A stretch of 64,000 nucleotides of DNA from Planctomycetota bacterium (GTDB lineage Bacteria > Planctomycetota > B15-G4). The stretch lies in assembly GCA_003644265.1 (NCBI GenBank), contig QNBX01000003.1, positions 1 through 64,000 on the forward strand, in the 5' to 3' direction. Within the stretch, counting starts at the first letter, position 1. Each line of letters starts with the position of its first letter. The notes beneath the pieces were generated by a model that saw only the letters and a program-made list of their open reading frames with translations, was not told where the DNA came from and ran no database searches. Positions 24,108-30,619 of the stretch are shown one piece after another. Made by a program: the position numbers and the translations under genes.

Positions 24108-24950
24108 TCAGAGCGTCAGCGTGACGTCGCCGGTGTCCGTCTGCTCGCCCACGCTGACGTCCACGCTGAGCGCTCGCGTCCCGAGTCGCTCGTGCCAGAC
24201 GCCGAGCTCGTAGCTCCCCGGCGGCAGGCCCTCGAGGGACCAGCGCCCCTCCTCATCGGTGACGCAGAAGAAGGGGTGCTCCACGACCCCGATCCAGCCC
24301 TTCATCCAGGCGTGGATGTCGCACGCCAGCTCGATCATGACCTCCTCGCGCTTGAACTGCAGCTCGCGCTGGAGCACCTCGCCGGGCATGGCCAGGTTTC
24401 GGGCGCGGTTGCGTTTGGGCTTGGTGTGCACGTTGTGCAGCACGCCGTCGCTGTTGAGCACGCGCAGGGTCTGGCCGGTGACCACACCCACCACACGCGG
24501 GCGGTACATGCAGCCGCGTTGGTCCAGCTCCACCACGCCTTTGGGCTCAGGCAGCTCCCAGCCGTCAAGCCCGCTCCGGACCCACACGAAGGCCCCGGCC
24601 AGCGCGCCGTCGCGCACGCGCAGCGACTCGTCAACGTAGCCGCCGGCCTCGCTCGCGGCGCCCACGCAATAGCTGTCACCGGTGATGAGCAGGGGCTCGG
24701 GCGCGGGGGCCGGACTGCCCAGCACGACACGCCCACGCAGCCCGCCGGTGTGCTCCGGGTCGATGGGCTTGTCCGGGTCAGGGACGACCGCGGACATGCC
24801 GCCGCGGCCACTGGCCGCCCCTGCCTCGCCGGGCTGTGCCGCGGGCGCCATCGATCCCGCCTGCTCGCCTCCGCAGCTCGCACACCACAGCGCGCACAGC
24901 AAGGCCCATGCGACGCCGGCGCCGCGCGCCGATGCTATCGTGCTCGCCAT
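24108..24950 (-). CDS. Cupredoxin-like lipoprotein
   Basis: A lipoprotein of 280 residues from the ATG at 24950. The signal AWALLCALWCASC ends in a lipobox cysteine. The central part is like the plastocyanin/methylamine-utilisation protein type: LHNVHTKPKRN followed by IELACDIHAWMKGWIGVVEHPFF, giving likely type-1 copper ligands His, Cys, His and Met. A C-terminal beta domain (LPPGSYELGVWHERLG) resembles carboxypeptidase-regulatory-like folds. It probably works in electron transfer or copper binding outside the cytoplasm. The start codon shares the CCATGG with the divergent AhpD-like gene; upstream in-frame starts at 24959 and 24998 would overlap that gene. Confidence 0.78.
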   Translation of the reverse strand: MASTIASARGAGVAWALLCALWCASCGGEQAGSMAPAAQPGEAGAASGRGGMSAVVPDPDKPIDPEHTGGLRGRVVLGSPAPAPEPLLITGDSYCVGAASEAGGYVDESLRVRDGALAGAFVWVRSGLDGWELPEPKGVVELDQRGCMYRPRVVGVVTGQTLRVLNSDGVLHNVHTKPKRNRARNLAMPGEVLQRELQFKREEVMIELACDIHAWMKGWIGVVEHPFFCVTDEEGRWSLEGLPPGSYELGVWHERLGTRALSVDVSVGEQTDTGDVTLTL

Positions 24951-24951
24951 G
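24948..24951. promoter_or_regulatory. Overlapping divergent start codons
   Basis: The four bases CATG carry the minus-strand start (ATG read from 24950) and the plus-strand start (ATG from 24949) at once, in the palindrome GCCATGGC. Each gene's promoter and ribosome binding site must then lie inside the other's coding region, unless the cupredoxin-like gene starts further upstream. Confidence 0.5.
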
Positions 24952-25542
24952 GCCTTCATCGACACGACTCCTCCCGCCCAGGCCGAGGGCCGGCTCAAAT
25001 CGATCTACGATCAGGCCGTCACCCGCGCAGGCCGAGTCTACAAGATCGTCGAGATCCAGGGCGCCAACCCGCCTGTGCTGGCCGCGTCCATGGGGCTCTA
25101 CCGGGCGGTCATGCTCGGCGACTCGCCGCTCACGCGCATCGAGCGCGAGGCCATCGCCGTCGTGGTGAGTCGCGCCAACGACTGCTACTACTGAGTTGCC
25201 GCGCACCAGGAGGACCTCCGTGCCGAGGTCCACAAACAGCTCAGCAGTGATGACCTGCTCGCCGACGACGGCCAGCGCCGCCGGCGCGCCGACGCCTTCG
25301 CGACCGACATGGCCTCCCAGGGCAGCGACGCGGCGCCCGACGAGCGCCTGCGCGCGCTGCTGCGCTACGCCGAGCGCCTGGCCCTCTCCCCGGGTGACGT
25401 GAGCGCCGACCACGTGCAGCAGCTGCGCGAGGTGGGCTACGACGACCGGGCCATCCACGACGCGGCCCAGACGGTGGCGTACTTCAGCTACATCAACCGC
25501 GTGGCGGACGGCCTGGGCGTCGATCCAGAACCCGGCGCCTGA
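24949..25542 (+). CDS. AhpD-like peroxidase-related protein, predicted selenoprotein with CxxU motif
   Basis: A carboxymuconolactone decarboxylase/AhpD-fold protein of 197 residues if the in-frame TGA at 25192 is read as selenocysteine (residue 82). Before the TGA: the family segments SPLTRIEREAIAVVVSRAND and C79-Y-Y. After it, in the same frame with no gap: VAAHQEDLRAEV, and then YAERLAL, LREVGYDDRAIHDAAQ, FSYINRVADGLGV, all typical of the C-terminal half. AhpD has Cys-x-x-Cys-x3-His; here it is C79-Y-Y-U82-x3-H86, so TGA falls at the second catalytic cysteine. A candidate SECIS hairpin lies at 25212-25231. AhpD-like selenoproteins are known. The alternative is a Cys-to-stop mutation or read error, in which case this is a pseudogene. 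Confidence 0.78.
25212..25231 (+). promoter_or_regulatory. Candidate bacterial SECIS hairpin
   Basis: GGACCTC, loop CGTGCC, GAGGTCC forms a perfect 7-bp stem with a 6-base loop. The loop begins 24 bases after the TGA at 25192-25194, within the distance typical of bacterial SECIS elements, and has G as its second base followed by U, as in known elements. It is wholly inside the coding frame, as bacterial SECIS elements are. SelB binding is inference. Confidence 0.65.
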
Positions 25543-28551: not shown

Positions 28552-28733
28552 CGGGACTCTCCAGCGGTCAGGCGATGGCTGCGCGGCGCCCCCCGGCGAG
28601 CCCTGGCGGCGTTCAGACGGAATCGAGCGAGCCCCAGGTTAGCCCCCGCCCTCGCGCCCTGCCATGGCGGCCCGGTCGCCTGCTCCGGCCGGAGGACTCG
28701 GCCGCGACCCGGCTAGCAGGTACACTGCCCGCC

Positions 28734-29339
28734 ATGGTCCACTCCATGCCCACCCCCGACGCCCCCGACCCCGCAGCCCTCGCCGACATGGCACGACGTC
28801 AGAGCTTCGCCGGCGAACGCCGGGTCTTCGTGTTCGGCGACATCAACAGCCGCGTGGCCGAGCGGGTCGTGAGGCAGCTGCTCGACTACTCCGCGTCCAA
28901 CCCGGTCGAGCCCATCGACCTGCTGATCAACAGCACCGGCGGCGACGTGGAGGCGGCCTGCGCCATCATCAACGCCATGCACGGCGTCCCCTGCCGGGTC
29001 AACACGGTCTGCATGGGCTTTGCCCAGAGCGCGGCCTGCATCATCCTCATGGCCGGAACCGGCGTGCGCACCGCCTTCGAGAACTCCGTGCTGCTGATCC
29101 ATCGCATGGTCTGGGACGACCCGGGCGAGGTCGAGGATGAGCACGGCAACTACCTGCCTCCGCCGGATGAGAAGTACGTGGCCCTCTGCCGCCGGCTGGA
29201 GAACACCTACCTGGGGCGCTTCCTGAAGCACGACGCCCTGTGGGCCGAGAAGCAGATCCCCACGGCGATGGACCTGTCCACCGATGACGCTCTGCGCGCC
29301 GGGGTCATCGACGGCGTGATCTTCCTCGACCGCGGGTAG
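28734..29339 (+). CDS. ClpP-like serine protease
   Basis: A 201-residue protein of the ClpP fold, the proteolytic chamber subunit of Clp proteases. The catalytic Ser is S99 in MGFAQSAACIIL and the His is H123 in NSVLLIHRM; the end ALRAGVIDGVIF matches the family. The oxyanion segment reads NSTGGDVEAA rather than NSPGGSV, and an insertion around 130-142 (VEDEHGNYLPPPD) is unusual, so it may be a divergent paralogue rather than the housekeeping ClpP. The ATG at 28734 is chosen from homology. ClpS and its DUF2017 partner are encoded 4 kb away. Confidence 0.87.
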   Translation: MVHSMPTPDAPDPAALADMARRQSFAGERRVFVFGDINSRVAERVVRQLLDYSASNPVEPIDLLINSTGGDVEAACAIINAMHGVPCRVNTVCMGFAQSAACIILMAGTGVRTAFENSVLLIHRMVWDDPGEVEDEHGNYLPPPDEKYVALCRRLENTYLGRFLKHDALWAEKQIPTAMDLSTDDALRAGVIDGVIFLDRG

Positions 29340-29530
29340 TCGGCCGCCGCAGCTCGCGACTTGGCCTCGCGCCCGCGCGGCCCCGCGGAGCGCCCGTCCC
29401 CAGCGAGACTCCAGCCACATCGGCTCGTTTCCGATCATGGGTTAGACTGCTCTGTTCGAGCTCCCCTCCAGACGCTCTCCCCCCGGGCGCCTCGCTTGAG
29501 ACCTGACCACCACCCGGAACGCACATCGCC

Positions 29531-30619
29531 ATGATCCGCAAGGCCATCAAGCAGTTCATGCTGGGCGTGAAGAGCCCCGCCCAGGCCACCCGCATCCTGG
29601 CATCCGAAGCCAAGATGCGCGCCGGCATCCGGACCCTGCGCTCGCTCGAGCTGGCGGTCACCTGGGTCTGCAACCTCGACTGCGACTTCTGCTACGCCGA
29701 AGACCTCATGAAGGCGCAGAACAAGCCGCCGCACATGCCGGTGGACGAGGTGGCGCGCATCACCCGCGAGGCCCACGACCTGGGCCTGATCCACGTCAAC
29801 GTCACCGGCGGCGAGCCGCTGGTGCGCAAGGACATCTTCGACGTGGTGGACGCCATCCCCAAGGACGTGGTGGTCTCGCTGGTGACCAACTCCACGCTGC
29901 TCACCAAGGAGAAGGTCGACGGCCTCAAGCGGGCCGGGCTGTCCACCATCCAGATGTCGTACGGCAGCTACTATCACAAGAGCTTCAAGCGCGACCTGGC
30001 GCGCTACTGCGTCGAGCAAGGCATCAGCGTCACGCTCTCGGTGGTCAACATCCGCAGCGAACGCGAGAACATCGAGCAGGCCTTCAAGATGTCCGAGGAG
30101 GACAACTTCTCGGTGCTGTTCAACTACCCGATGATCTACAAGAACGTCGGGCTCGACAGCGAGTACTACTGGAAGATGCGCTACCACCCGCGCTGCCGCG
30201 AGGACAACCTCTTCTGGTCGGGCAAGGACCGCTGCCCCGCGGGCACGCACAAGCTCTACGTCACCAACGACGGCGACGTCATGACCTGCGACCGCATCCA
30301 CGCCATCTACGGCAACGTGCACAAGGAGCCCCTCGCGGTCATCCACAAGCGCATGTACGAGCAGTTCATCACGCACAAGAGCTTCTGCCTGCTGGAGACC
30401 TGCAAGGACCAGTGGCAGGAGAACAACCAGCGCGCCGCTCGCAACTACTCCCTCGATCTGCTGGGCACCACCGCCGATCCCTTCAACGTGTTCGAGGGCA
30501 CGCCGCTGATGGACACCACGGTGGTGGGCTCCACCGTGGCGCAGGAGATGCACGCCGCGCGCCGCTCCGCCCGCGACCAGGAGACGGCGGCGGACGAGAA
30601 GCAGCCCGCCTCGAGCTGA
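29531..30619 (+). CDS. Radical SAM/SPASM domain protein of unknown substrate
   Basis: A 362-residue enzyme that should reductively cleave S-adenosylmethionine. The [4Fe-4S] motif is C47-x3-C51-x2-C54 (WVCNLDCDFCYAE) followed by VTGGEPLVRKD. A C-terminal cysteine set (DRCPAGTHKLYVTNDGDVMTCD, later CLLETC) looks like a SPASM or shortened auxiliary cluster domain. Relatives act in peptide or cofactor maturation and in lipid (HpnH-like) chemistry. No precursor peptide or obvious partner is nearby, so I name no substrate. The last 40 residues are polar and not conserved. Confidence 0.85.
   Translation: MIRKAIKQFMLGVKSPAQATRILASEAKMRAGIRTLRSLELAVTWVCNLDCDFCYAEDLMKAQNKPPHMPVDEVARITREAHDLGLIHVNVTGGEPLVRKDIFDVVDAIPKDVVVSLVTNSTLLTKEKVDGLKRAGLSTIQMSYGSYYHKSFKRDLARYCVEQGISVTLSVVNIRSERENIEQAFKMSEEDNFSVLFNYPMIYKNVGLDSEYYWKMRYHPRCREDNLFWSGKDRCPAGTHKLYVTNDGDVMTCDRIHAIYGNVHKEPLAVIHKRMYEQFITHKSFCLLETCKDQWQENNQRAARNYSLDLLGTTADPFNVFEGTPLMDTTVVGSTVAQEMHAARRSARDQETAADEKQPASS

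Follow-up and report, generated by a model that had tools for sequence, protein, structure and literature searches.

AhpD-like selenoproteins in which selenocysteine (Sec) occupies the second position of a CxxU motif are already catalogued in prokaryotes: Table 1 of a 2026 review lists an "AhpD-like protein, TIGR01926, CxxU" among the predicted ones (PMC13188914), PMC9312934 covers the same selenoprotein families, and two other reports give 27 AhpD-like CxxU sequences from the Sargasso Sea (PMC1088965) and 299 of AhpD-like 1, COG2128, from GOS (PMC2398784), which we infer to be of the TIGR01926 kind. As to planctomycetes, selenoproteins are known in two of them from a paper whose main text contains neither AhpD nor CMD (PMC4807772); "Planctomycet" is absent from the main text of the 2026 review (PMC13188914), and the titles among the literature matches listed, supplements excluded, include none on this family in Planctomycetota. 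Here we analyse a stretch of 64,000 nucleotides (nt) from a Planctomycetota bacterium (the window) and a gene at its positions 24949-25542, which in all probability encodes a full-length AhpD-like (TIGR01926, CMD-fold) selenoprotein. This prediction was reached by computation, from the frame, the family, the fold, the conservation of an in-frame TGA, a codon bias resembling that of a selenocysteine insertion sequence (SECIS), and the co-occurrence of selB and tRNA-Sec in relatives. Since AhpD-like CxxU selenoproteins are already catalogued, the gene adds a member and no new kind of selenoprotein; it shares the NCBIfam family and the CxxU motif with Sec second with the catalogued type, whose representative is MCB9421940.1 (PMC13188914). 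The dominance of Sec in Planctomycetota and the rubredoxin-like fusions described below may be less known so far.

The frame 24949-25542 contains a single internal TGA (codon 82), its terminal stop being TGA at 25540-25542, and the protein around the site reads S-R-A-N-D-C79-Y-Y-U82-V-A-A-H86. The initial annotation had placed an in-frame TGA at the second catalytic cysteine, in the arrangement C79-Y-Y-TGA-x3-H86, and had recognized family sequence on both sides of it in the same frame; frame and translation bear out the former, and relatives indeed match on both sides. The features are as follows, with conservation counted over the loci described further below.

24949..25542, forward strand: predicted AhpD-like (peroxidase-related, TIGR01926) selenoprotein gene, 197 residues, Sec at residue 82; same start residue in relatives
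25147..25149, forward strand: codon of E67, 12 residues upstream of C79; 57 of the 58 distinct TGA loci have Glu
25183..25185, forward strand: codon of C79, presumed selenenylsulfide partner of U82; all 58 distinct TGA loci have Cys
25192..25194, forward strand: in-frame TGA, probably read as selenocysteine (U82); aligned codon TGA in 59 of 68 loci, window counted
25204..25206, forward strand: codon of H86, an active-site histidine conserved in all 58 distinct TGA loci
25212..25231, forward strand: putative bacterial SECIS-type hairpin; stem of 7 bp, apical loop CGUGCC (6 nt) at a distance of 24 nt from the TGA

Y81 is likewise kept in all 58 distinct TGA loci, and the spacing of E67 to C79 matches what we take to be the Glu/Cys/Cys/His relay of AhpD.

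In a hidden Markov model (HMM) search the window protein scores 122.4 bits with TIGR01926 (peroxidase-related enzyme), the curated cut-off being 81.8, and it has the AhpD-core fold with E, C-x-x-C/U and H; the affiliation to the AhpD/peroxidase-related families, which the initial annotation had left to an alignment of the read-through protein, is therefore backed by HMM and fold. The protein stays below the cut-offs of the AhpD subfamily TIGR00777 (21.3 against 191.95 bits) and of NF041238, AhpD-related (seleno)protein CFYUT (48.1 against 175 bits), and its weak match to NF053654, YciW-related (seleno)protein (17.5 bits, far under the cut-off of 310), does not make it a member of that family. 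Its fold matches that of Mycobacterium tuberculosis AhpD (1knc, 1gu9), an enzyme with a CxxC motif and a relay of Glu and His. The solved AhpD or peroxidase-related structures 2prr, 2pfx, 2oyo, 3c1l and 6k40 have Cys where the window protein is predicted to have Sec; in contrast to these relatives, the window protein carries an insert of its own at roughly residues 90-120, and its D-L-R-x-E-V stretch is absent from them in the two alignments examined. A peroxidase role, drawn from the family, is rather probable, this derivation being a point on the side of caution. The alternative, in which the selenoprotein would be a thiol-disulfide or dehalogenase-type enzyme of the CMD fold, is unlikely though by no means negligible: the solved proteins nearest to it carry the name AhpD or peroxidase-related, and the set E-C-x-x-U-x3-H is complete.

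Among 392 Planctomycetota genomes searched, 131 matched the protein at E 1e-12; a TGA-bearing copy was found in 112, a stop-free copy only in 7, and 12 were left out of typing, no row covering the site being among the matches listed. With a TGA copy in 112 of the 119 typed matching genomes, Sec may be the normal state of this branch. Reading TGA as Sec would restore an enzyme that roughly one in three of the Planctomycetota genomes sampled possesses (131/392). The site codon, read from DNA in 68 loci, is TGA in 59 (the window included), TGC in 6, TGT in 2 and TTG (Leu) in one distant copy. These loci comprise the 30 best of the 392-genome search, three TGA relatives in named genomes, 20 further TGA places, the TGA places of four genomes without selB (G064, G152, G240, G341) and of G358, which has an extra TAG, the window itself, the stop-free copies of 7 genomes and another of this type from G349, and a G001 paralogue; the sample is non-random, and 59 versus 9 is no frequency. 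Neither TAA nor TAG, which the initial annotation had named beforehand as speaking against Sec, stands at the site in any of the 68 loci. The three relatives from genomes named as Phycisphaerales, Anaerolineales and Acidobacteria have one in-frame TGA each; the match in G366 contains two TGA, and in that of G358 (L072) the TGA is accompanied by a TAG, which may be the terminal stop of that gene. The selenocysteine reading of the initial annotation is supported, all of its refuting conditions that were examined having turned out in its favour: TGA is aligned with Cys of homologues, it recurs in homologues of other organisms, and the hairpin fits the model discussed below. Viral contigs scanned with the relative P0002 gave no match.

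The Cys form in 8 of the 68 loci and the single base change separating TGC or TGT from TGA might suggest a pseudogene or sequencing error, i.e. a Cys codon turned into a stop once, in the genome or in the assembly. We consider this highly improbable. A further 57 distinct loci share the TGA and match on either side of it, some of them being second copies within one genome (G106, G138, G358), and coding constraint runs on downstream of the TGA: when the window is compared in turn with its five closest relatives, third codon positions diverge most, both upstream and downstream of the TGA. As a general account of the family, pseudogene or error is refuted by the conserved TGA.

The database proteins show how the gene is handled by gene callers. 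Among 120 listed relatives (of 124 found), 96 match only from residue 78 onward. In 60 of these the alignment opens at query residue 83-88 and inside the first five residues of the listed protein; P0116, also one of the C-terminal matches, is longer and bears a different family N-terminally. Another 3 are confined to the part upstream of the site and end at residue 81, one of them being the window's own; the remaining 21 cross the site with Trp (9), Cys (8), a gap (2), Gly (1) or Ser (1). The splitting by standard annotation, anticipated from the window alone, is seen in 99 of the 120, which are N- or C-terminal pieces. The prevalence of pieces, and a start callable at M or V near residue 83-85 in many relatives, whose C-terminal pieces open there (codon 83 of the window is GTT), could be taken to mean that the TGA is a true stop: no Sec would be inserted, and the products would be an N-terminal piece of 81 residues and perhaps a second one from the 3' part. 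However, such a split would fall between the conserved C79 and H86, the 96 C-terminal and 3 N-terminal pieces arise because gene callers stop at the in-frame TGA, and a true stop would not account for the lack of TAA and TAG at the site, for the codon bias in the hairpin or for the link to selB; this explanation thus has very little probability.

As for the entries with Trp (P0008, P0017, P0018, P0019, P0024, P0033, P0036, P0057, P0067) or Gly (P0007) at the Sec position, they are what favours a lineage-specific code (genetic code 4 or 25) in which TGA would encode Trp or Gly, making up 10 of the 21 listed relatives that cross the site. Still, none of the 68 loci has TGG or a Gly codon there, the window gene itself terminates with TGA, and selB accompanies the TGA form. 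The contigs behind these entries do not exceed 1374 bases, and the Trp and Gly probably reflect the choice of table 4 or 25 by gene callers on short contigs, which is likely a systematic database error; we regard a sense codon as extremely improbable. Gene callers thus cut the family at its active site, and 9 more of the 120 listed proteins carry a probably false Trp.

The perfect 7-bp hairpin with a CGTGCC loop that had been noticed at 25212-25231, the loop 24 bases past the TGA, is present there, with the arms GGACCTC (25212-25218) and GAGGTCC (25225-25231) enclosing the loop (25219-25224). The RNA of 25186-25245 folds, this hairpin included, at -23.8 kcal/mol against a mean of -14.8 for 200 dinucleotide shuffles (z -3.2), none of which was as stable. 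The bacterial SECIS (bSECIS) model of the 2026 review prescribes a loop of 3-9 nt that lies 16-37 nt from the UGA and has a G as its first or second base, on an upper stem of 4-16 bp (PMC13188914); the window hairpin agrees on every count, with 6 nt, 7 bp, G second and 24 nt.

The hairpin lies within the codons for D-L-R-x-E-V, and there the codons that form it are used more often than elsewhere in these genes: Leu is CTC in 47/54 cases against 423/940, Arg is CGT or CGG in 49/54 against 255/824 (CGC, the commonest Arg codon elsewhere with 472 occurrences, is used 5 times), Glu is GAG in 45/47 against 455/613, and Val is GTC in 25/31 against 320/731. Fisher p-values overstate this evidence, and likewise that of the selB comparison below, as the genomes are related and many are fragmented. 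In the TGA loci, standard pairs fill 80% of pair cells in register, versus 33-53% with the 3' arm slid, and 42 of the 58 distinct TGA loci have at least 5 consecutive pairs in that register. Synonymous-codon shuffling of the hairpin gave no significance for the window gene alone (fraction 0.19); in the 9 other loci it gave 0/9 at 0.05 and a mean z of 0.00.

selB status was typed by hand with an E-value standing in for a cut-off, which left 158 genomes below it versus 157 by tool. By this measure selB is present in 104 of the 112 genomes with a TGA copy versus 116 of the 261 without a family match, in 3 of the 7 with a stop-free copy only and in 11 of the 12 untyped matching genomes. The five closest genomes (62-67% identity) all have selB over the cut-off and tRNA-Sec matches of 70.9-75.5 bits, and in each of the 8 TGA genomes with no selB a tRNA-Sec match exceeds the Rfam cut-off, by a narrow margin in G064. 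Of the four stop-free genomes without selB, G020, G219 and G387 have no tRNA-Sec over the cut-off, and G285 has two. The latter genome (L064) has a Cys-type copy and no selB over the cut-off, yet its tRNA-Sec matches are strong, at 75.8 and 75.4 bits; its selB may be missing from the assembly. In 14 control genomes the selB search was over the cut-off in 2.

Several observations weigh against Sec insertion at this site. The selB and tRNA-Sec evidence comes from the genomes of relatives and not from that of the window organism, and there is no tRNA-Sec within the window. The cut-off of RF01852 is not strictly specific, second matches lying just over it in several genomes (47-50 bits), and it was exceeded in 5 of 14 control genomes. 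Rfam gave no match of any kind over the window at gathering scores and no SECIS match around the site at relaxed scores, its coverage of bacterial SECIS being uncertain. The fifth hairpin codon, Asp GAC, is unbiased (36/49 versus 484/678, p 0.45); the 9 non-TGA loci pair at 54% in register versus 35-48% slid, and 3 of them have a run of at least 5 pairs, which is absent from 16 of the 58 distinct TGA loci. Three of these 16 (L072, L095, L096) form a more distant TGA-type subgroup without the D-L-R-x-E-V stretch, the rest being without explanation. Finally, synonymous shuffling gene by gene yields a weak signal, 5 of the 59 TGA loci reaching 0.05 or better with a mean z of -0.79, so the claim of selection on the RNA rests on the locus set, where the signal is significant. 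In L072, L095 and L096 another G+C-rich GGCGC/GCGCC hairpin with a GGUC loop is seen by eye nearer the TGA, perhaps an independently built SECIS.

Sec insertion in the window organism, as predicted from sequence comparison, would proceed as follows. At UGA codon 82, SelB with Sec-tRNA-Sec would prevent termination by binding the hairpin 24 nt downstream, within the coding sequence, and Sec82 would replace the second cysteine of the CxxC motif. To judge from the family, the substrates would likely be organic or hydrogen peroxides; Sec82 would attack the peroxide, C79 would resolve to the selenenylsulfide, proton transfer could be aided by E67 and H86, and the Sec82/C79 pair might be re-reduced by a thiol or an electron-carrier protein.

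With regard to the electron carrier, five C-terminal pieces (P0070, P0071, P0079, P0083, P0087) match DUF7130 over its cut-off and a rubredoxin-like model, the latter over its cut-off in 1 of 5. The DNA of L028, alone among the 59 TGA loci in having CxxC pairs after the site, encodes an extension with two such pairs about 143-163 residues after the TGA. The rubredoxin-like/DUF7130 extension is a possible built-in electron donor. The chances appear evenly divided that a large Planctomycetota branch of TIGR01926 is normally Sec-containing, with the SECIS in D-L-R-x-E-V and some rubredoxin-fed seleno-peroxidase fusions. Taking the TGA as Sec would add a selenium dependence to a phylum unmentioned in the main text of the 2026 review (PMC13188914).

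In the five closest relatives (L017-L021) a -10-like hexamer (window region 24936-24951) ends exactly 7 nt before the ATG, being TATACT in 3, TACACT in 1 and TAAACT in 1 (TATCGT in the window); this spacing suggests a leaderless mRNA for the selenoprotein gene. At 24948-24951 of the window, the ATG of a divergent gene could overlap that of the selenoprotein gene head to head. Several neighbours recur in the five closest genomes: the clpP and radical SAM genes in 5/5, the divergent CarboxypepD_reg gene in 4/5, MiaE in 4/5 and the sulfatase in 3/5, at the E-value used. In the window, the ClpP-like protease gene and then the radical SAM/SPASM gene occupy 28638-30619, and the two stand side by side in all five. 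Among the 120 listed relatives of the radical SAM protein, the three above 80% identity with a named organism are Planctomycetota (P0134, P0136, P0137), so that, with the shared neighbourhood, a planctomycete origin of the window is most likely; two more distant named relatives among the matches listed are Oligoflexia (P0207) and Thaumarchaeota (P0227).
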